DNA of 64,000 bases, from NCBI GenBank assembly GCA_013215505.1, contig JABSQZ010000003.1:1-64000 (forward strand). The letters run 5' to 3'. Source of the stretch: Oceanospirillaceae bacterium. Lineage in GTDB: Bacteria; Pseudomonadota; Gammaproteobacteria; Pseudomonadales; Balneatricaceae. A program made the translations under genes and the position numbers. Positions 8,288 to 47,783 of this stretch are shown here, one piece after another. The number at the start of each line of letters is the position of its first letter. Position 1 is the stretch's first letter. The notes under the pieces are model-generated. The model made no database searches and had not been told where the DNA came from. It saw nothing but the letters and a program-made list of their open reading frames with translations.

Positions 8288-8785
8288 ATGAAAAATAGCT
8301 TATTAATAAAAATTGTCATCTTATTGACTCTCTCAATTACAGGTTGTGCTGATCTTAAGAAAGGAAAGATGTTTAACGATATCAATGTAACAGGAAGCTG
8401 GAGTGGTAATTGGCAAACTAAAGATGGGACTTATACAGAAAGTTTTAAATTGGATCTCATTCAAAATAATAATAAAATTTCAGGGACTGGGCTTGATGAA
8501 CATGGCTCATCAGCGGCTATTACAGGGCATCTGATACAAAAAGAAGTAGAACTAAAAATATGGAACAACCAAGGCACAGGTGTTTTTGTAGGTTTACTAA
8601 ATAATAATCAAATCACAGGTACATGGGTTTCTGAAAATAGATCTGGTCCATTTCAGATTATTAGGAAAAAAGCAGGTATTTCATTTGCATCGGCCAAAGA
8701 GCTGTGTAAAAAGTTTACGAGGCCTGGGAATTCTCAAAATATTGGCGAGGAAGTGCTTGCTAAAGGACAAATTAAGAATTGTTGA
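8288..8785 (+). CDS. small lipoprotein with a beta-rich domain
   Basis: The product of about 165 residues begins MKNSLLIKIVILLTLSITGC, a lipoprotein signal with the modified Cys at position 20. The mature part has repeated strand-forming segments: GSWSGNWQTKDGTYTESFKLDL, then NKISGTGLDEHG and NNNQITGTWVSE. This looks like a lipocalin-like or calycin-type small barrel. Four codons further upstream are open, but the ATG at 8288 starts a normal signal peptide. The gene is clearly more AT-rich than its neighbours, which may reflect transfer. No specific function is assigned. Confidence 0.65.
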   Translation: MKNSLLIKIVILLTLSITGCADLKKGKMFNDINVTGSWSGNWQTKDGTYTESFKLDLIQNNNKISGTGLDEHGSSAAITGHLIQKEVELKIWNNQGTGVFVGLLNNNQITGTWVSENRSGPFQIIRKKAGISFASAKELCKKFTRPGNSQNIGEEVLAKGQIKNC

Positions 8786-9042
8786 AATGATTCATATAGA
8801 AAGGTAAAGATACTTGAGCGTAGAGACATAATGGATTTGAATCCCAATATATGCAGGTTATCGCTCAAGGTTTTACTCTGTCTCCGTTGAACTCAAATTA
8901 TAGATAGTCTGCCGGTCATTAAAGGCCACTAAATCAGAATAATTATTTTGTTACACTGGATCAGTTAACTGCATCTTGGAAGGTGATTATGTGGCTAAAA
9001 AACCATGACTTGATGTTCTCTAGGACGAGAAATAGCAAGTCT

Positions 9043-9723
9043 TTATAAATTTAGGTCAAAGTAATCAGCTAAGCCCTGCTTACCTTTTTTAGTGATAAAT
9101 ATTTCCCGATAATCCGGGTTTTTTCTGATCCATTGCCGGTTCTGTAAACTACCCATAAGCGCGGCACCTAAAGCACCGCCCAGGTGGTTTTTATTTTCAG
9201 TCCAGTCACAACAGGCACGGGCAAATTGGCGTCTGGATTTCTTGACCTTATGCAGGTCTACCCCCAGATCACTGAAAAAAGTTTCGCCATTGGCTGTCAG
9301 AGAATAATTGCCGTTTGTCTGTTCCTCAAGGTAGCGATTCACAATTAAACTGTGGGTGATGTTAACCCCCAGCCAACCAGCGATATGGTCGTAGCATGAG
9401 CGAGCAAAAGCGATCTCAGTTTGTGGTGGGATCTGCGTATGGCTGAGATAAGCGACCTGCTCGCCTAGTACTTCTAGCATATCACCGACTACTTCATCCC
9501 TTATCTGAAAGAACCTATAGCGTCCCTGCTTTTTGACTTTGATTAAATCGACTTTCAGCAATACTTGTAAATGCGTTGTTGCGGTATTGGCCTGCACATC
9601 AGCCAGTATCGCTAAGTCAGTAGCAGATCGTGCCACACCATCAGCTAAAAACTCCAGCATCTTGAGTCGGGCTGGTGAAGCCATTGCCCCCGCCATTTTT
9701 GCCATACGATGTATTGCCGTCAT
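9043..9723 (-). CDS. ArsR family winged-helix transcriptional regulator
   Basis: The 226-residue protein has an ArsR-type winged helix at residues 10-75: MASPARLKMLEFLADGVARSATDLAILADVQANTATTHLQVLLKVDLIKVKKQGRYRFFQI. A C-terminal extension of about 130 residues contains several Cys/His residues (CYDHIAGWLGV, ACCDWTENKNHLGGALGAALM). That extension resembles a subgroup of long ArsR proteins annotated in proteobacteria and is not the classical arsenic site. The gene is divergent from the NIF3/CutA-like gene with a 91-bp gap. Confidence 0.85.
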   Translation of the reverse strand: MTAIHRMAKMAGAMASPARLKMLEFLADGVARSATDLAILADVQANTATTHLQVLLKVDLIKVKKQGRYRFFQIRDEVVGDMLEVLGEQVAYLSHTQIPPQTEIAFARSCYDHIAGWLGVNITHSLIVNRYLEEQTNGNYSLTANGETFFSDLGVDLHKVKKSRRQFARACCDWTENKNHLGGALGAALMGSLQNRQWIRKNPDYREIFITKKGKQGLADYFDLNL

Positions 9724-9814
9724 ACTTCGATGAAGTCCGAATTGTTAGTAGTTTATCAAGTGTACAGTTCTCTGGAATAAAGACAAAACAGAACGTTTTC
9801 AACGGAGACTATTT

Positions 9815-10276
9815 ATGCAATCTAAAGGTTCAATCGATAATATTGAGGATGTATGTACAGATCTAAACCAGCTCCTCAACACTTGTTCTCTGGTACCGGT
9901 ATGGTTTGTTCGGGTAGAGCTAGCAGAGCGAGATGATCAACGGGTTCGTGATAGTGTCGCAAATGCAGTGGCTTTGCCATACGGAGCCTATACCAAGGTC
10001 GCTTTCGAATCTTCTGCAGGGGTACAATTTTTTTGCCCTCAACAGCACTCAAAATCCGGGGATATACAACGCACAGTTGCAATGCCAACGCGCATCCTAA
10101 CTTTTTCTATAGCTAAAGACTCAGACAAACTGGCTTTGGCCATAGAGGCCATCAGGGAAAATCACAGCTATGAGGAGCCTGTCATCTATATCACAGAAGG
10201 AATGGCGTCTCGCGCAGACTACAGCGCGGACAGGGATAACCCCAATCGGTGGTGGAATCGGGGTTTTGATATATAG
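9815..10276 (+). CDS. NIF3/CutA-like small alpha-beta protein
   Basis: The 153-residue protein has PVWFVRVELAERDDQRVRDSVANAVALPYGAYTKVAFESSAGVQFFCP, which resembles the ferredoxin-like insert of NIF3/YqfO proteins. NHSYEEPVIYI follows, similar to the HPYEEPAYDI and HPYEVPEI strands of YqfO and CutA1. Those folds trimerise and may bind metals or small signals. GGAG stands before the ATG. It is divergent from an ArsR regulator that may control it. A regulator- or metal-linked role is plausible but not shown. Confidence 0.55.
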   Translation: MQSKGSIDNIEDVCTDLNQLLNTCSLVPVWFVRVELAERDDQRVRDSVANAVALPYGAYTKVAFESSAGVQFFCPQQHSKSGDIQRTVAMPTRILTFSIAKDSDKLALAIEAIRENHSYEEPVIYITEGMASRADYSADRDNPNRWWNRGFDI

Positions 10277-10356
10277 CTTATAGGGCTTAAGAGTTTCGCT
10301 GCTATTAACACCAAGTAGCAAACCTTGCCAATACTCTGCTCAGTGTCTCTAACCCA

Positions 10357-10383
10357 GTGCGACAACCAACGGGGTTGTCGTAC
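10357..10383. terminator. 11-bp hairpin between convergent genes
   Basis: GTGCGACAACC and GGTTGTCGTAC pair over 11 positions with a single G-T wobble and a 5-nt loop. The hairpin lies between the NIF3/CutA-like gene and the convergent DUF4856 pseudogene. No T-run follows. Confidence 0.4.
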
Positions 10384-10413
10384 AATTAGCAAGGGTGTTA
10401 AAGTCAATTTTTC

Positions 10414-11829
10414 TCAAACTAAATCGTTTTCAGTATTATTGCCGGAACCTAACTTTTCCGCTAAAGCGGCAAGCTTGCTGATTTGGTCCTTATCGCGGGC
10501 CAGCAGTGCAAAGTTATCTGCAAGAAGCTTTTGTACTTTAAGCATGGTCAGAGCGTACTCATTCAAACCAACAGAGTTTCCCTGCAGATAATCCCCTTTA
10601 GCGTCGATGCCTATTACTTGTGTATCACCGAGCAGTACCGGACTAAAGCCAATTAAGCGATTCAGTGATACCGCCAGCCCCGCTAAGTCTTTAGCACCGG
10701 TTTGCAGAGACATGCTGAAGCCCTTCAGTTCACCCCATACATGTATATAGTCCTTGAATAGTGTGCCCGCATCTTGGTTGTTCTCTACAGCGATTTGTAG
10801 TTTTAATATCGAGGAATAGATCCTACCGGCATATTTAAAAGCGGCCTTGGCAATTACCAGCTCCCAGTTGTTTTTAATAATATCAGCGTAACTGAGTAGC
10901 TGTACGCGCGCCCTGGAGCTGAGTTTTTCACTGTTAACCTTAGTGATTAACTGGCGGCCGTCAATTAAAGCTCTGGTAATGATGTGCAGATAATTGGACT
11001 TTCCGCCAAGATCGGCGCTAGCTGCATAGTAAACATTGGCATAGGTCATTTCGCTGCTCAGATCGATACTGCCGCTGTTGTTACTATCTGCCAGAAAAGA
11101 CCTGGCTTTTACCTTTGGCGATTGCATGGGCCGTTGCTACCTGTAAATTTAAAGCATTGGCAGGGGCACCAAAATAACCAAAGGCCTCATCCCAGATGTG
11201 CTCTTTACCGATATATGCAGCATTTTCCTTATAGGCTTTATCGTTAGACTTTACATCCGCATTTAACTTCTCATCCAAATATGAATCGACTGCTTGATTG
11301 TAAAAGACGGCGCCCATAACAAACTTGGAAATTAATTGTGGATAATCCATACCGTTAGTGACATCGAAACCTCGATCTGCCGCAGAGGCTTTTTTCAGCA
11401 TAAATGCCAGTACTTCTACAGAAGTCATATTACCTGGCCAGCCGTTGACTATGCCTTTGTAAGCTTTCCCTGCAAGGTTTTTGTCTTTGGACAACTGGTC
11501 GATTTTACTCTCTGCGATGCTAAAGCCATCTTTGCTGACAGGATTAAGTATCGGTCGCCCCGCATCTGTTGCAGCAATAATATTGCTGCATGAGTGCCTG
11601 TAATTCAGGATTAGCGGCTCCGTTACCTTTCGCGGCTAGTTTTTTAAGTGCATTGTGCAGCAAGTGTCGGGCAGTTTGTCCGCCGTAAGCAACCGAACTT
11701 TTCTTATCACCCCAATAACACTTTTAATGTTATTGGGAAGTCAGAATAGACTGGCTCAGTGGCTGCAGCTGCTGAAATTGAGCTGAAAGAAGTCAGTGCC
11801 GTGATTGCTATGAGTCTATTTAATTTCAC
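10414..11829 (-). pseudogene. DUF4856 family secreted protein, frameshifted
   Basis: Read on the minus strand, a GTG at 11829 opens a good signal peptide (KLNRLIAITALTSFSSISAAAA) that meets a stop at about 11707. The frame then changes to SSVAYGGQTARHLLHNALKKLA, stops near 11570, and changes again to an open stretch with LISKFVMGAVFYNQAVDSYL and HIWDEAFGYFGAP, which are DUF4856 hallmarks. It stops again at 11084 and resumes in another frame with RSFLADSNNSGSIDLSSEMTYANVYYAASAD to 10414. The joined product would be about 460 residues. DUF4856 proteins are exported imelysin-like proteins of unclear role. Three frame breaks argue for a decayed gene, unless the sequence has indel errors. Confidence 0.75.
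11711..11737. repeat. perfect 10-bp inverted repeat at the first frame break
   Basis: CCCAATAACA, a 7-nt loop and TGTTATTGGG form a perfect 10-bp stem. It lies where the signal-peptide frame of the DUF4856 pseudogene ends and the next frame takes over. A small insertion or hairpin-driven slippage could have caused the break. Confidence 0.6.
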
Positions 11830-41338: not shown

Positions 41339-42481
41339 ATGGCCAAACAAGAAGAATTTGGATTTGGAACACAGATTCGTAAATCTCCCTATTTCGACGC
41401 TACTGTGCGTTGGGGTGCACAGGGATTTTCGGTGTATAACCACATGTATATTCCGAGGGATTTTGGAGATCCGGTGCAAAATTTTTGGAATTTGGTCAAC
41501 GATGCAATTCTCTGTGACGTTGCAGTAGAACGACAGGTGGAAATAACCGGTCCGGATGCCGCAGAGTTCACCCAGTTGCTGACTCCCCGTGATCTTTCCG
41601 CACTTGCAGTTGGCCAGTGTAAATATGTACTCATTACCAACGCTCAGGGAGGTATTCTCAACGACCCAATCTTGTTGCGCCTGGCGGAAAATCACTTTTG
41701 GATTTCGCTGGCTGATAGCGATGTTCTGCTTTGGGCACAGGGAGTCGCAGTGAATTCCGGTTTGGATGTGCAAATTCGTGAACCTGATGTGGCACCGCTG
41801 CAGCTGCAGGGGCCCAAGTCCGGAGAAGTGATGAAAGCACTATTGGGCGAGAGTATCGCCGATCTTCGCTATTACTGGCTGCGCGAATATGATCTCGATG
41901 GTATCCCGTTGATCGTCTCCCGCACCGGTTGGTCGAGTGAGCTGGGTTATGAGCTTTATCTGCGCGATGGCTCTAAAGGCGATGAACTGTGGGAAAAGAT
42001 CATGTCAGCAGGTGCTCCCTTTGGGCTTAAACCTGGTCATACTTCTACCATCCGCCGTATTGAAGGCGGTATGTTGTCTTACCACGCAGATATGGATATC
42101 AATACAAACCCTTATGAATTGGGGCTCGGCCGTCTGGTTGATGTCGATGCAGATATTGAATTTATTGGCAAAGCGGCACTTAAAAGTATTCGTGATAAAG
42201 GAGTTTCTCGTCAACAGGTAGGCCTGGTGATTGATGGACCTGCAATGGCGAATTCAAATACTAAATTCTGGGTGTTAGAAAAGCAGGGTGAACCAGTGGG
42301 TAAAGTAACATCCGCGGTGTTTTCACCACGCTTAGAGAAGAATATCGCGCTGGCAATGGTGGGCTCAGAGTTCACCGCACTAGGTAGCCAATTTACCTTA
42401 CAGACAGCTAGCGGAAAAACCACGGCCAGAGTCGTAGAAAAGCCTTTTTTTGATCCGAAAAAGAAAATCACAACAACCTGA
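41339..42481 (+). CDS. DmdA-like aminomethyltransferase (possible DMSP demethylase)
   Basis: The 380-residue protein is a stand-alone GcvT-fold enzyme. Its pattern follows DmdA from memory: RKSPYFDATVRWGAQGFSVYNHMYIPRDFGDP, AVERQVEITGPDAAEFTQLLTPRDL, GQCKYVLITNAQGGILNDPILLRLAENHFWISLADSDVLLWAQGVAV, and IRRIEGGMLSYHADMDINTNPYELGLGRLVD. DmdA transfers a methyl group from dimethylsulfoniopropionate to tetrahydrofolate. Glycine-cleavage T proteins usually come with gcvH and gcvP, absent here. A different methylated substrate, such as glycine betaine, cannot be excluded. Confidence 0.6.
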   Translation: MAKQEEFGFGTQIRKSPYFDATVRWGAQGFSVYNHMYIPRDFGDPVQNFWNLVNDAILCDVAVERQVEITGPDAAEFTQLLTPRDLSALAVGQCKYVLITNAQGGILNDPILLRLAENHFWISLADSDVLLWAQGVAVNSGLDVQIREPDVAPLQLQGPKSGEVMKALLGESIADLRYYWLREYDLDGIPLIVSRTGWSSELGYELYLRDGSKGDELWEKIMSAGAPFGLKPGHTSTIRRIEGGMLSYHADMDINTNPYELGLGRLVDVDADIEFIGKAALKSIRDKGVSRQQVGLVIDGPAMANSNTKFWVLEKQGEPVGKVTSAVFSPRLEKNIALAMVGSEFTALGSQFTLQTASGKTTARVVEKPFFDPKKKITTT

Positions 42482-42704: not shown

Positions 42705-44063
42705 TTACTCTAAATTATATTTTAGAGCTGCGACATAGACCGGTTGTAGGTTGCCATAAAAACCGGAACAGGCAATAGTGTCATAATACTTTCCACCGAT
42801 AGAATATATCTGGTTTATATTTTGCACATATATCGCATCAAACCGTTCTTTGAGTAACATTTCAGTCAATCTCGATGATAAGCCTGAACCAACAACTTCT
42901 AGGCTATTGGGATTGTTATTGTACTTTTTCAGCACACTGACTAGTTTTGTACCGCCGGGAAATCCAATGCGCAAATTTTTCCACAAGTGAGTTGCACTGA
43001 GAAATGGAATAAAATTTTTCTTTTTGAAACACAGTCCGGGAATTTCAAAAGTAATTGGTTTCCCTATTGGCTGTAACTCAGCTATATCATAGATCGGAAA
43101 GGCCAATTGAATTGCCCCGTTCTGTAAAAAGCCTCGTAGTCTTTTTCTTGGAATCCCAACCAGTTTCAGATCGATAAATTCTACTGATTCAGTAAAGTGT
43201 TGTGGCCAGGATTGTTTAATGTCTCCATTGTTTTCTATCTTAATATAAGGGGGATAATCGAATACGCCCATGACCAGTTTTTGCTGCATAGCGACCTCTG
43301 GCTTAGAATCATATTGTTCGAATATCAATTTATCCATGGCGAAGCTGACCCCTCCTGCTAATTGATTGAGCTTAAAATTCTGCATTTTAAAGCCTGCTAT
43401 ATTTATATTTGTCCATTTAGACGGTGGCAGGTTTAGATTGAGGAGATTATCCTCTGCTGCTCCATGGCAGCTAAGACAGCCTTTGTCATGGTAAAGTGGA
43501 TACATATAGCGCACTTCATCGGCAACGATTTCCAAGTGAGTTTGGCCCTTTTCCCAACTGGGACTGGCTATTTTTTCTAGTACAGCTTGCTCCCATTTGT
43601 CGGGTTTGTTGAGCTCATTATAAAGTTTACCTGCAAATCCGGAAAATTTTATCCGCATGGGTAAATACGCATTAGAAAAACGTTGCGATAATTGAAACGC
43701 AAAAATCGCAGGAATAAACCCTTTGACCTTTATCTGTTTGTCCAAAAGAAGGGCTTTGTTTGTCTCCATTATAACTTTCATAGACAGCAACATTTCTCTG
43801 GTCACAATATTATCTGATTTCGGAAATTTTTTTTTGAAAGTCGTTACATAGGTGGCTTTAACTTGAGCTATAAAGTTTTCCCCGAATAGGTGCGATTTGT
43901 CTGCATCTGTAGAGTTGATAATTGATTGATTTTCGAAAATAGTTTTCATCGCTGCGACATATATTTGTGTGGTTTGTTGCGCGATATCTTGCACTGTTTT
44001 TTGTGTTGCAGCTGCAGAATTGAAGCTATAGATGAGTAGAATTAGATAAACTATATTTTTCAT
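42705..44063 (-). CDS. secreted heme-c sensor (Tll0287/DUF3365-like) fused to a solute-binding domain
   Basis: The product of about 452 residues has a signal peptide (KNIVYLILLIYSFNSAAA) and no later membrane helix, so it should be periplasmic. Residues ~20-245 look like a Tll0287-like/DUF3365 sensor with FIPAIFAFQLSQRFS and a c-type heme site CLSCH at 196-200. From about residue 260 a type 2 periplasmic binding domain starts (LVMGVFDYPPYIKIENNGDI), similar to SBP_bac_3. The ATG at 44063 has GGAGG 6 nt upstream. The fusion suggests heme-dependent redox or gas sensing coupled to ligand binding. The gene is AT-rich and divergent from a chemoreceptor gene. Confidence 0.7.
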   Translation of the reverse strand: MKNIVYLILLIYSFNSAAATQKTVQDIAQQTTQIYVAAMKTIFENQSIINSTDADKSHLFGENFIAQVKATYVTTFKKKFPKSDNIVTREMLLSMKVIMETNKALLLDKQIKVKGFIPAIFAFQLSQRFSNAYLPMRIKFSGFAGKLYNELNKPDKWEQAVLEKIASPSWEKGQTHLEIVADEVRYMYPLYHDKGCLSCHGAAEDNLLNLNLPPSKWTNINIAGFKMQNFKLNQLAGGVSFAMDKLIFEQYDSKPEVAMQQKLVMGVFDYPPYIKIENNGDIKQSWPQHFTESVEFIDLKLVGIPRKRLRGFLQNGAIQLAFPIYDIAELQPIGKPITFEIPGLCFKKKNFIPFLSATHLWKNLRIGFPGGTKLVSVLKKYNNNPNSLEVVGSGLSSRLTEMLLKERFDAIYVQNINQIYSIGGKYYDTIACSGFYGNLQPVYVAALKYNLE

Positions 44064-44614
44064 CTTAACCTCCACCCAATAATTAGAAAATATCTAATGG
44101 ATCCTGTCAATTTGCAGCGGCTTCTTCAAGTGCCCTTAACAAGCCCGCTGTTCAGCAATCCTACCTTAAACTATAGCTTAAAATGCCGCACTTTAGCGCT
44201 AATTGAAGTCAATGCAGGGGGGAGGTGGAATGTTATCCCTTTTTGCCACTGTGCGGTTTATTCCTTCGCTGATGCCAGAGTGATAGCGTCCGTAAAATTC
44301 AATCTGGCTAAGTTTGTTTCAGGCGTATCTCCTAGCAAATAATATGTATTAGCCATCAGCTGATAGGCATGCTCAGACCCTTTAAACTGATCTAATATGC
44401 ATAGAAAGTTAAACCTTTCGTTATTGGCTAAGAGGCTGAATTGCTTTCTCTAATTGAGAGTCTATAGTTAGATTAGGAAAATTCGAATTACCCAACCCAG
44501 CACCCTGATTTAACCTGTATATATCAAAACCCTTGTATCTATACAAAACGGATAGATTAGTGCTATTTTTATGACATAGACCCACTTGGGTTTATCCCAA
44601 TAGAGGCACTCAGT
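44064..44614. other. 551-bp divergent region with a decayed minus-strand ORF
   Basis: It separates the heme-sensor gene and the chemoreceptor gene. On the minus strand from about 44450 to 44258 an open stretch without a clear start reads ...ERFNFLCILDQFKGSEHAYQ, then LMANTYYLLGDTPETNLARL and ends LASAKE. It may be the tail of a lost gene. Its family is not recognised. Confidence 0.3.
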
Positions 44615-46255
44615 ATGGACATTTTAAGAGCATTTAAAATATCTCGCAGAATCCAATTTCTGATAATGCTGGCTTTTTTGTCAATTATCTCCATCACAGC
44701 GACTAACCTCACCCAACTGCAAGAGGAGCTTTTAGCACAAAAAAGTATCCAGACGCGCAACTTAGTTGAAACCGCTCACAGTTTAATTAAAGCCCAATAT
44801 GATCAATTTCAAGCGGGTGTAATCACTGAAGACCAAGCCAAGCAACAGGCTATCCAAATAGTTAAAAGCATGCGCTATGAAGATAACAACTATTTTTGGA
44901 TCAATGATTATGCCCCCCGAGTGATCATGCACCCGATTAAACCTCAACTTGATGGCAAAGATGTATCCAATGTTAAAGATGCCAGTGGAAAACTGTTATT
45001 TGTCGAGATTGTCAAAGTTGCCCGCAGTCACCCAGACGGCGGAATACTCCCGTATCTGTGGCCCAAACCCAACCATGATGAGCCGGTCGAGAAAGTATCC
45101 TATGTCAAGGCTTTCCAGCCCTGGGAGTGGGTCGTCGGCTCAGGTATATACATTGACGATGTCGATGTGATTTTCTTTTCTCAGGCTAAAATAGCGCTGG
45201 GGATGTCGTTATTTCTAGTGCTATTGCTGCTATGCGTCTCGTATATTATAGCTCGCAGTATTTTGCTACCCCTAAATAGCACCTCTTCAGCGTTGCTTAA
45301 TCTCTCTCAAGGGGAGGGGGATTTAACTGAAACTCTGTCCACCGCAGGTAATGATGAGGTGACGGTACTGGTCAGCGCATTTAACAACTTTGTCGATAAA
45401 ATTAAACATACCGTTATTCAAGTGGAGGAGGTGGGGAAAAGTGTAAATATGTCCTCACTCGAGTTGTCCGAAATCACCGATATCAACAAGCAGCAGCTGG
45501 AAAGTCAGCATATGGAGATAACTCAAGTTTCAACGGCGGTTAATCAGATGTCTGCAACGGTACAAGATATTGCCTCTAGTGCTGAGAATGCAGCCGCTGC
45601 AGCCAGGCAAGCTGACACTGAGGCGCAAGAGGGAATGATAGTAATGCAGAGCACAACGGAGTCGATTGAGCTTTTAGCGTCAAATGTCGACTCAGCAGTC
45701 AGTGTTATTAATCAATTAGAAACCGAGAGTCAACGCATAGGAACGGTCATAGAGGTCATACAAAGTATTGCCGCGCAGACCAATTTATTAGCTTTAAATG
45801 CAGCCATTGAAGCCGCTAGAGCGGGTGAGCAAGGTAGGGGTTTTGCCGTCGTTGCCGACGAAGTTCGTACACTGGCAAGTCGTACCCAACAGGCGACTGA
45901 AGAAATCAATAAAATGATCGAGGAACTGCAAAACCAAAGTGAAAAGGCCGTTCAAGTGATGGCTGAAAGTAATGAAAATACTAAAAGCACGATTGAAAAA
46001 GTCGGCAATGCTGAGCTTTCTCTTAGAACCATAGTATCTTCGGTTAATGAAATTTCTGACATGAATATCCAAATTGCCAGCGCGGCTGAACAACAATCTG
46101 CTGCGGCAAACGAAATAGACCAAAGTATTGTCAGGATAGCTTCGCTTGCCGATGAATCATTTAAATCCGGTAACAAAGTAGCAGAGTCCTCTGTTAATTT
46201 GGCAGCATTAGGTGACCAACTAAATACTTTAATATCTACCTTCAAAACACGTTAA
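44615..46255 (+). CDS. methyl-accepting chemotaxis protein with Cache domain
   Basis: The 546-residue receptor has a first membrane helix at about 13-33. A periplasmic single Cache (sCache_2) domain follows with [32 protein letters not shown] and [18 protein letters not shown]. The second membrane helix is at about 195-215, then come HAMP and a long signalling coiled coil. Its hairpin tip is [33 protein letters not shown]. Such Cache receptors sense small organic acids or related ligands. It is divergent from the heme-sensor fusion, which could present a ligand or redox state to it. No other chemotaxis gene is nearby. Confidence 0.93.
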
Positions 46256-46757: not shown

Positions 46758-47783
46758 ATGATCTTTACAGAAGATGCGAATACAGCCGCTGCTTTTTTGC
46801 GCAAAGCGGTTCCTAAAATGATCGAGCATAATATTGTCCCCAATCCTTTTAACTTCACACTATGGTATAGCTATTACACTGAGCGTTTCCCAGAATTGAA
46901 TCGCGAACTTGACTATATTCTAGATAGATTTAAAACCTGTCCGCCTGAAATGAGTGAAACATTGCTGCTCAAATATATCATTAAAAAAGATGATACCGAG
47001 CATAAAGACAGGGATGCATTTCAAATAGCGATAGACGCTTTATTGGAAGATTTATCTGAAAATATAGGACAAGCTGCAGCGCAAAGTAATATCTACCTCT
47101 CTGCATTAGGCGATAATGTGGCCGGCTTGTCAGATGCCAATTTAGATGAAAATCATGTGCAAATTCTGGGTGAACTAACTGAGAATGCTAATTCGTTGTG
47201 CCAGCTAAATGATGCATTGCAAGTAAAAATGTCTTCTGCCCAAACAGAGATAGAGTCTCTTAAAAAACAGCTACAAGAGAGCGTAGAGGAAGCGAATACA
47301 GATGCATTGACGGGTTTAAGTAATCGTCGCTTGTTTGAATCTGTCTATCAGAAATTTGTCGAAGAAGAAGCTGAGTTAGAAATTTCTTTGATTATGATGG
47401 ATATTGATAAATTTAAAGTTTTCAATGATACCCATGGCCACCTTATGGGAGATCAAGTCTTGAAGCTTGTTGGCAAGCTGCTAAAAGCTGAGTGTAAAAA
47501 ACCTATCATCCCTGTTAGATTTGGAGGAGAAGAGTTTGCTTTGCTCTGCCTTGGAGTCAATGTACAGGAGGCAAAAGAAGTTGCGGAAAAATTAAGAGCA
47601 AGGTTATCCAGTATTGCGTTAAGCAACAAAAGAACAGGCGAAAAAATTTCACCGGTTACAGCGTCTTTTGGGGTCGCTTTCTCTAAGGATATTGAATTGT
47701 TACCCGAGCTAATTGATAGGGCAGATAAGGCGCTTTATCAAGCAAAAGAAAATGGACGTAATCGGGTTCAAGTCGCTGCTTAA
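46758..47783 (+). CDS. diguanylate cyclase (GGDEF)
   Basis: The 341-residue cytosolic protein has an N-terminal helical region found in many proteobacterial cyclases (AAAFLRKAVPKMIEHNIVPNPFNFTLWYSYYTERFPELNRELDYIL). A coiled-coil linker follows (SAQTEIESLKKQLQESVEEAN). The GGDEF domain has DALTGLSNRRLF, DIDKFKVFNDTHGHLMGD and active site RFGGEEF. The usual RxxD inhibitory site five residues before GGEEF is absent, so feedback by c-di-GMP is not expected. It differs in this from the cyclase at 30168. Confidence 0.92.
   Translation: MIFTEDANTAAAFLRKAVPKMIEHNIVPNPFNFTLWYSYYTERFPELNRELDYILDRFKTCPPEMSETLLLKYIIKKDDTEHKDRDAFQIAIDALLEDLSENIGQAAAQSNIYLSALGDNVAGLSDANLDENHVQILGELTENANSLCQLNDALQVKMSSAQTEIESLKKQLQESVEEANTDALTGLSNRRLFESVYQKFVEEEAELEISLIMMDIDKFKVFNDTHGHLMGDQVLKLVGKLLKAECKKPIIPVRFGGEEFALLCLGVNVQEAKEVAEKLRARLSSIALSNKRTGEKISPVTASFGVAFSKDIELLPELIDRADKALYQAKENGRNRVQVAA

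Follow-up and report, generated by a model that had tools for sequence, protein, structure and literature searches.

Heme-c Cache domains (sCache_heme/DUF3365) are known from two settings. Outside signalling receptors, they occur as CxxCH-bearing proteins with Cys/His heme ligation, as in Tll0287 of Thermosynechococcus elongatus and the stand-alone sCache_heme protein of P. putida; as parts of membrane receptors they include GSU0582, GSU0935 and a P. azotoformans protein, all reported to bind nitric oxide (NO). A passage in PMC8396549 describes Met60 of GSU0935 as a possible sixth heme ligand that is displaced by CO and NO. According to the main text of a 2026 preprint (PMC12889525), nearly half of sCache_heme/DUF3365 domains are stand-alone, those of the P. 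putida type are redox-like and the membrane-bound type lacking an axial Cys is NO-sensor-like, a member without this Cys having been reported to bind NO like known NO sensors; the preprint thereby divides stand-alone (redox) from signalling-fused domains. A described precedent for the control of a membrane receptor by a binding protein is the NspS-MbaA system. A c-type heme protein is also found with a binding-protein-like partner in methanol oxidation, where XoxJ or MxaJ is encoded with the cytochrome XoxG or MxaG beside methanol dehydrogenase. Here we describe a gene of a marine bacterium, Oceanospirillaceae bacterium (GCA_013215505.1), that joins a heme-c Cache domain to a type-2 solute-binding protein (SBP) fold, two secreted-type proteins that relatives encode as neighbouring genes. 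The gene lies in a stretch of 64,000 nucleotides (contig JABSQZ010000003.1, positions 1 to 64,000), hereafter the window.

The window protein has a feature of each of these systems and departs from all of them. Like Tll0287 and the P. putida protein, it carries a CxxCH heme-c Cache domain outside a signalling receptor, but unlike them it has no candidate axial Cys. It shares the heme-c Cache domain with GSU0582, GSU0935 and the P. azotoformans protein, the last of which also lacks an axial Cys, but these are membrane receptors, whereas the window protein appears soluble and is fused to an SBP-fold domain. Its C-terminal half has the type-2 fold of SBP_bac_3-type proteins and of the periplasmic Venus-flytrap (VFT) domains of BvgS and other histidine kinases; unlike SBP_bac_3 proteins, it scores below the Pfam cut-off, has an extra Cys pair and, in the window, is short at the C-terminus. 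The principle proposed below, a soluble binding-protein fold reporting to a membrane signalling protein, is that of NspS-MbaA, except that a heme domain is paired or fused with the binding protein and that the receptor in the window host is only putative. As for XoxG and XoxJ, a c-type heme protein and a periplasmic-binding-protein fold are encoded together, but the heme domain is a Cache domain rather than a cytochrome fold and there is no methanol dehydrogenase among the assigned neighbours.

The two halves of the fusion protein

The open reading frame (ORF) from 42705 to 44075 on the minus strand is intact. A GGAGG ribosome-binding site lies just 5' of the ATG at 44063, which opens the signal-peptide-like sequence MKNIVYLILLIYSFNSAAA. 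On account of this site we took the ATG as the start; the alternative GTG at 44075, given as the start in a preliminary description of this DNA, overlaps the GGAGG and is probably wrong. The 452-aa product has no second strongly hydrophobic segment (the best later 19-residue hydropathy window is 1.07), and inspection and hydropathy thus bear out the earlier statement that it is a soluble, presumably secreted protein without a membrane anchor. An AlphaFold2 model of the whole fusion, built from an alignment of 24 rows (A8), shows two confident domains (predicted local distance difference test, pLDDT, 86.9; predicted template-modelling score, pTM, 0.85) and a floppy linker at residues 253-258. 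An earlier model, from an alignment in which MAFFT had placed separate SBP rows against the heme half (A3), was usable only for residues ~1-250. A phmmer search of the whole protein against PDB sequences returned no match up to E 10, and profiles and folds were therefore used to assign the two halves.

The N-terminal half matches PF11845 (Tll0287-like) with E 4e-13 and 50.5 bits against a cut-off of 24.1. The best fold match of this half of the model is Tll0287 itself (5b82; Z 11.4, 3.6 A over 149 residues), which also ranked best with the earlier model (Z 10.9; Foldseek E 1.7e-4), followed there by a chemoreceptor Cache domain (Z 7.8). Together with the CLSCH motif, at which heme would be attached, these matches agree with the initial assignment of a DUF3365/Tll0287 domain. 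The accompanying remark that such domains are usually membrane-bound is half right, given the near-half share of stand-alone domains reported in the main text of PMC12889525. All 15 paired heme sequences of the tree described below have the CxxCH motif. The axial Cys of the stand-alone redox subtype is missing, since the window heme half has no Cys beyond CxxCH and none is conserved in the paired clade; in the 15 tree sequences additional Cys residues are confined to the signal-peptide region or the C-terminal tail, and a further relative (L129) has those of CxxCH alone. The domain composition of the signalling-fused NO sensors is also missing, since the C-terminal half is an SBP fold without a HAMP, MCP, kinase or cyclase Pfam domain. 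Being unfused to signalling modules yet without an axial Cys, the paired clade misfits the preprint's division between stand-alone and signalling-fused domains.

The C-terminal half of the window protein alone has no SBP Pfam match (none to PF00497, SBP_bac_3, at E up to 1), and the best of four relatives tested (L067) reaches 25.8 bits with PF00497, against a cut-off of 26.4. The profile of the family matches AncQR, a binding protein of solved structure, among PDB sequences (E 6.4e-6). The model of this half matches amino-acid-type SBPs (Foldseek E 1.8e-9 for 9e2b) and superposes on a GlnP domain (4kr5_B) with Z 10.6 and a root-mean-square deviation of 3.3 over 187 residues, LAO, BvgS VFT2, XoxJ and others being tied. 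On this modelled structure the half is a divergent type-2 solute-binding fold, in keeping with the domain named in the preliminary description. In the profile alignment to AncQR, which is weak, the Arg and Asp that we take to hold the amino-acid ligand in SBP_bac_3 proteins are not kept.

Relatives with separate heme and binding-protein genes

The pairing of a heme Cache protein with an SBP is wider than the fusion. A whole-protein scan of genome contigs returned four loci, three from Colwellia and one from Pseudoalteromonas denitrificans, and a whole-protein search of 293 genomes of the host order matched 20, only one of which (G255) held both halves besides the host gene. When whole genomes were searched with the C-terminal-half profile at a threshold of E 1e-12, matches were found in 2 of 116 genomes of the host family (host included), 1 of 10 of the family of G255 and 16 of 295 of the family of a Colwellia genome, these last comprising eight strong (E <1e-80) and eight second-tier matches (8.6e-16 to 2.6e-13). 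Across the class (369 genomes), 12 genomes matched at E 1e-3, the window being the sole strong match. Since few genomes matched, the heme/SBP module is rare.

Besides the window, 15 loci carry the pair, counting a second copy in one genome (G764) and the locus L129, which was found through the heme profile of a related clade (see below) alone. The heme and SBP genes are separate and adjacent in all 15, making the window the sole fusion in 16 loci; 14 have both genes on the same strand with the heme gene first, and in the one genus-mate found with the pair (L067) the genes are convergent. By inspection, each separate gene begins with a signal-peptide-like stretch, except for the L068 heme ORF as called. 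The short in-frame linker of the window corresponds in relatives, among them the nearest one (L069), to a stop codon followed by a new start and a second signal peptide. An assembly or frameshift artefact was rejected as the origin of the fusion, because a second signal peptide would not fit between the halves and no C-terminal remnant was found in three frames downstream. A tree of the heme half (34 rows, L129 left out) groups the window with 14 paired genes in a single clade (support 98/96), within which L069 is the window's sister (100/98); of its 31 inner branches, 12 were drawn open, and some rows are long. A genome search for the fusion, as proposed in the preliminary description, thus recovers conserved adjacency of the halves, the fusion itself in the window only and no conserved adjacency to a chemoreceptor. 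No description of a heme-Cache/binding-protein pairing was found in the main texts of the literature searched, and the main text of PMC12889525 does not mention a binding-protein partner.

The paired SBPs also share a pair of cysteines. Cys345 and Cys432 are kept in 16 of 16 heme-linked SBPs, and a Cys at either column is found in none of 16 second-tier SBP ORFs for which no nearby heme gene was found, some of these ORFs being weak matches (E up to 1.7e-4) with an unsure alignment. The 16 ORFs were matched from 11 of the 13 second-tier loci (all but L078 and L050). The 13 loci, which are short, showed no heme gene, and neither did L093 and L094 when read with longer flanks. Both cysteines lie in strands according to DSSP of the model; judging from the fold, these are probably neighbouring hinge strands, and we hypothesize that the pair is redox-linked to the heme. 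The features of the fusion gene and of its signalling neighbours are collected in Table 1.

Table 1. Coordinates of the fusion gene, its parts and nearby signalling genes in the window.
Feature	Position	Strand	Basis or remark
Fusion gene, heme-c Cache (Tll0287-like) domain and type-2 SBP fold	42705..44063	-	452 aa; ATG 44063, stop 42705
Signal-peptide-like stretch, residues 1-19	44007..44063	-	Inspection and hydropathy
sCache_heme/Tll0287-like domain, residues 20-248	43320..44006	-	Pfam, fold match
CLSCH heme-c attachment motif, residues 196-200	43464..43478	-	Sole Cys residues of the heme half
Linker, residues 249-260	43284..43319	-	pLDDT <50 at 253-258
Type-2 SBP-fold half, residues 261-452	42708..43283	-	Profile and fold; some 20-27 C-terminal residues short relative to relatives
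Cys345 codon (PGLCF motif)	43029..43031	-	First of the family-specific Cys pair
Cys432 codon (IACS motif)	42768..42770	-	Second of the family-specific Cys pair
Divergent methyl-accepting chemotaxis protein (sCache_2, HAMP, MCPsignal)	44615..46255	+	Pfam; neighbour, not conserved partner
GGDEF diguanylate cyclase	46758..47783	+	Pfam; one gene further on

Scans of the surrounding region for other elements gave no RNA feature at Rfam gathering thresholds between 40000 and 48500, and promoter and terminator scans returned no more than shuffled sequences. On the other side of the fusion gene, a GcvT-family protein (41339-42481) falls below, though close to, the NCBIfam cut-off for dimethylsulfoniopropionate (DMSP) demethylase (371 versus 410 bits).

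Signalling genes beside the pair and in a related clade

Neighbours were tabulated with our own longest-ORF calling rather than from annotation, and Pfam was applied only to those bearing on the question; at L069 and L129 a contig end truncates the neighbourhood on one side. A signalling gene (a methyl-accepting chemotaxis protein, MCP; a kinase; or GGDEF) is an immediate neighbour of the pair in 7 of 16 loci. Histidine kinases with Reg_prop/Y_Y_Y domains adjoin the pair on the same strand in four of these (L036, L037, L086 and L089, in the last of which a 143-aa opposite-strand ORF without a Pfam match was passed over), and L035 and L092 have a convergent GGDEF and a convergent kinase neighbour, respectively. 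From the Y_Y_Y domains counted in 8 genomes and an assumed 0.9 genes per kb, ~0.04 such adjacencies would be expected against the 4 seen. The 8 genomes, a choice from the 14 others, include every one of the four positives, two of which (L036 and L037) are closely related, so that the excess is overstated; an excess of Reg_prop kinase neighbours likely remains. Other neighbours include an S58 peptidase (L067), an aldose epimerase (L088), a ferritin (L068), an efflux pump (L090), transcription regulators (L036, L090) and TonB receptors (L089, L092).

The preliminary description had proposed that the fusion communicates with the divergent Cache chemoreceptor or with the nearby diguanylate cyclase. 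As a conserved partner of the paired family the MCP was rejected: it is an immediate neighbour in only 1 of 16 loci, the window itself, so that the family lacks the conserved chemoreceptor neighbourhood whose absence the preliminary description had itself named as counting against the idea. The sole other pair locus with an MCP a few genes away is L068. Only two of six genus-mates have a homologue of the window MCP at E 1e-100 (35-37% identity), and G760, the genus-mate found with the pair, carries its closest homologue (37% identical) on a contig other than that of the pair. The gap between the fusion gene and the MCP gene is 551 bp (539 with the GTG start). The diguanylate cyclase is real, but lies one gene further and shows no sign of linkage to the fusion. 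The host genome holds 40 MCP matches, from which an MCP neighbour is expected by chance for ~1.6% of genes. It also has thirteen Tll0287 domain matches; among those inspected are receptors in which the domain is joined to MCP, GGDEF or kinase-like parts.

A closer association with chemoreceptors was seen in a related clade. The whole-protein search also surfaced stand-alone secreted heme-Cache genes, 30-35% identical to the window protein, with strong members (profile E <1e-90) at 11 loci (L070, L102-L107, L109, L110, L127 and L128). The next same-strand gene is an MCP, 14-156 bp away, in 10 of the 11; the exception is L127, which came with L128 from a later search of 390 genomes, the two being split one to one for the MCP. 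Nine of the ten MCPs were confirmed by Pfam, the tenth (L128) by phmmer only. MCPsignal and HAMP domains are present in eight of the nine and MCPsignal alone in L106, and no Pfam-known periplasmic sensor domain was found in any of the nine scanned MCPs. The related heme profile matched 5 of 369 genomes of the class at E 1e-15, and the clade is placed as the nearest kin of the paired clade with support of only 91/90. Its heme genes have no Cys besides CxxCH outside the signal-peptide region, except in L107. In that locus the frame before the MCP (L107:4602-5240) ends at 212 aa without CxxCH and with one Cys at residue 204, probably because of a frameshift or sequence error. The MCPs at L102:1127-5062 and L103:5230-8091 (1311 and 953 aa) have HAMP_2 repeats, with 6 and 3 matched stretches. 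The host genome holds one operon of this type (contig C10, L070:6294-8787) and, upstream of a further MCP (match at C7:76200), a 57-aa heme-Cache remnant (L101:1483-1656; contig C7, about 74969-75121), which is a decayed copy of a heme-Cache/MCP operon. Although it concerns another clade, this arrangement is the strongest argument that heme-Cache proteins may, in soluble form, sense on behalf of membrane receptors, and it lends weight to the broader suggestion of the preliminary description that a soluble protein could sense redox state or a gas (10 of 11 loci; 10 of 13 when the two more distant loci considered below are counted).

Possible functions of the heme-Cache/binding-protein module

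The reading we favour, with a confidence that falls just short of even, is that the window gene naturally joins the two genes of a periplasmic sensor module, most likely a soluble heme sensor that would report to membrane receptors; it may sense redox state or NO. In such a module, unit 1 would be a soluble heme-c Cache domain whose distal heme site, since the axial Cys of Tll0287 is missing, is probably exchangeable and may respond to NO or redox state. Unit 2 would be the SBP fold, whose family-specific Cys pair the model places in two strands. When the heme binds NO or is oxidized, the change could be relayed through direct contact or through a redox exchange involving the Cys pair and switch unit 2 between open and closed; unit 2 might then dock on a membrane receptor, much like the binding proteins of NspS-MbaA-type systems. 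The receptor would vary by lineage; candidates are the Reg_prop histidine kinases found next to the pair in some genomes of the Colwellia type.

Several findings weigh against this reading. Only 7 of the 16 loci have a signalling gene as immediate neighbour, so that the pair is not consistently accompanied by any one receptor. The window copy ends some 20-27 residues before the C-terminus of its relatives, and shared ancestry alone could explain the Cys-pair contrast with the second-tier SBPs. In the related clade, two more distant loci in the same tree group (L108 and L113; 93/95, drawn open) have no MCP beside the heme gene, which lowers the count to 10 of 13, and the still more distant L112 has none either. 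The main text of PMC12889525 assigns stand-alone sCache_heme proteins to redox roles. Finally, redox-enzyme or cytochrome genes neighbour the pair in three loci: a pyrroloquinoline quinone (PQQ)-type sugar dehydrogenase (GSDH, 8361-10540) that directly precedes the heme gene, in the same orientation, in the genus-mate of the host (L067), a cytochrome c/rhodanese gene (with an M20 peptidase gene) in L091 and a divergent molybdopterin oxidoreductase in L037. Electron transfer would fit these loci too.

A pair for electron transfer or maturation, in which the heme domain would shuttle periplasmic electrons and the SBP-fold partner would serve as a chaperone or docking factor, is the chief rival to a soluble sensor, though on balance we think it unlikely. 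The GSDH gene preceding the heme gene in L067, the redox roles that the preprint's main text gives to stand-alone domains and the absence of the amino-acid-binding Arg and Asp from the weak profile alignment to AncQR all suit it, as does the presence of XoxJ (6onp) among the fold matches of the C-terminal half (Z 10.1), which is tied with many others. However, the assigned neighbours include a redox enzyme or cytochrome gene at three loci, signalling neighbours are commoner (7 of 16), and the redox-type axial Cys is absent. The subset of neighbours given to Pfam contains one GSDH and no PQQ methanol dehydrogenase. It is quite improbable that the window gene is instead a relic in decay, fused in frame by accident, deprived of its C-terminus and in the course of being lost. 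Such decay would account for the fusion being the only one in 16 loci and for the missing last 20-27 residues with no downstream remnant, and the host genome also has, in front of an MCP gene, what is left (57 aa) of a related heme gene; but the frame is open over 452 codons, residues invariant in the alignment are kept in both halves, the ribosome-binding site is good and the two-domain model is confident. We regard as slightly less probable again the model of the preliminary description, in which the fusion would serve the divergent sCache_2 MCP, or the diguanylate cyclase nearby, as a soluble sensor. The MCP is indeed the divergent neighbour, an arrangement expected by chance for few genes, and related heme-Cache genes stand upstream of MCPs, but in the paired family this occurs in a single locus and across a wide gap, and the best genus-mate homologue of the MCP is distant and not beside the pair in G760. 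Moreover, the window MCP has a Cache domain of its own, whereas the nine scanned MCPs of the related clade are without a Pfam-known periplasmic domain.

Extending the sensor-module reading to the whole family, the pairs could represent an undescribed class of soluble periplasmic heme sensors, in which a heme-c Cache domain controls a Venus-flytrap protein, possibly through a redox-active hinge Cys pair, and feeds histidine kinases in some lineages and, in the related clade, sensor-less MCPs. This wider proposal is doubtful, but if true it would break the proposed rule that a stand-alone sCache_heme domain is redox rather than sensory. Heme-c Cache domains have only recently been described as NO sensors. 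The conserved pairing, once a fusion, and the MCP-tied clade name candidate partners for the stand-alone ones, which makes the view that stand-alone means redox directly testable.

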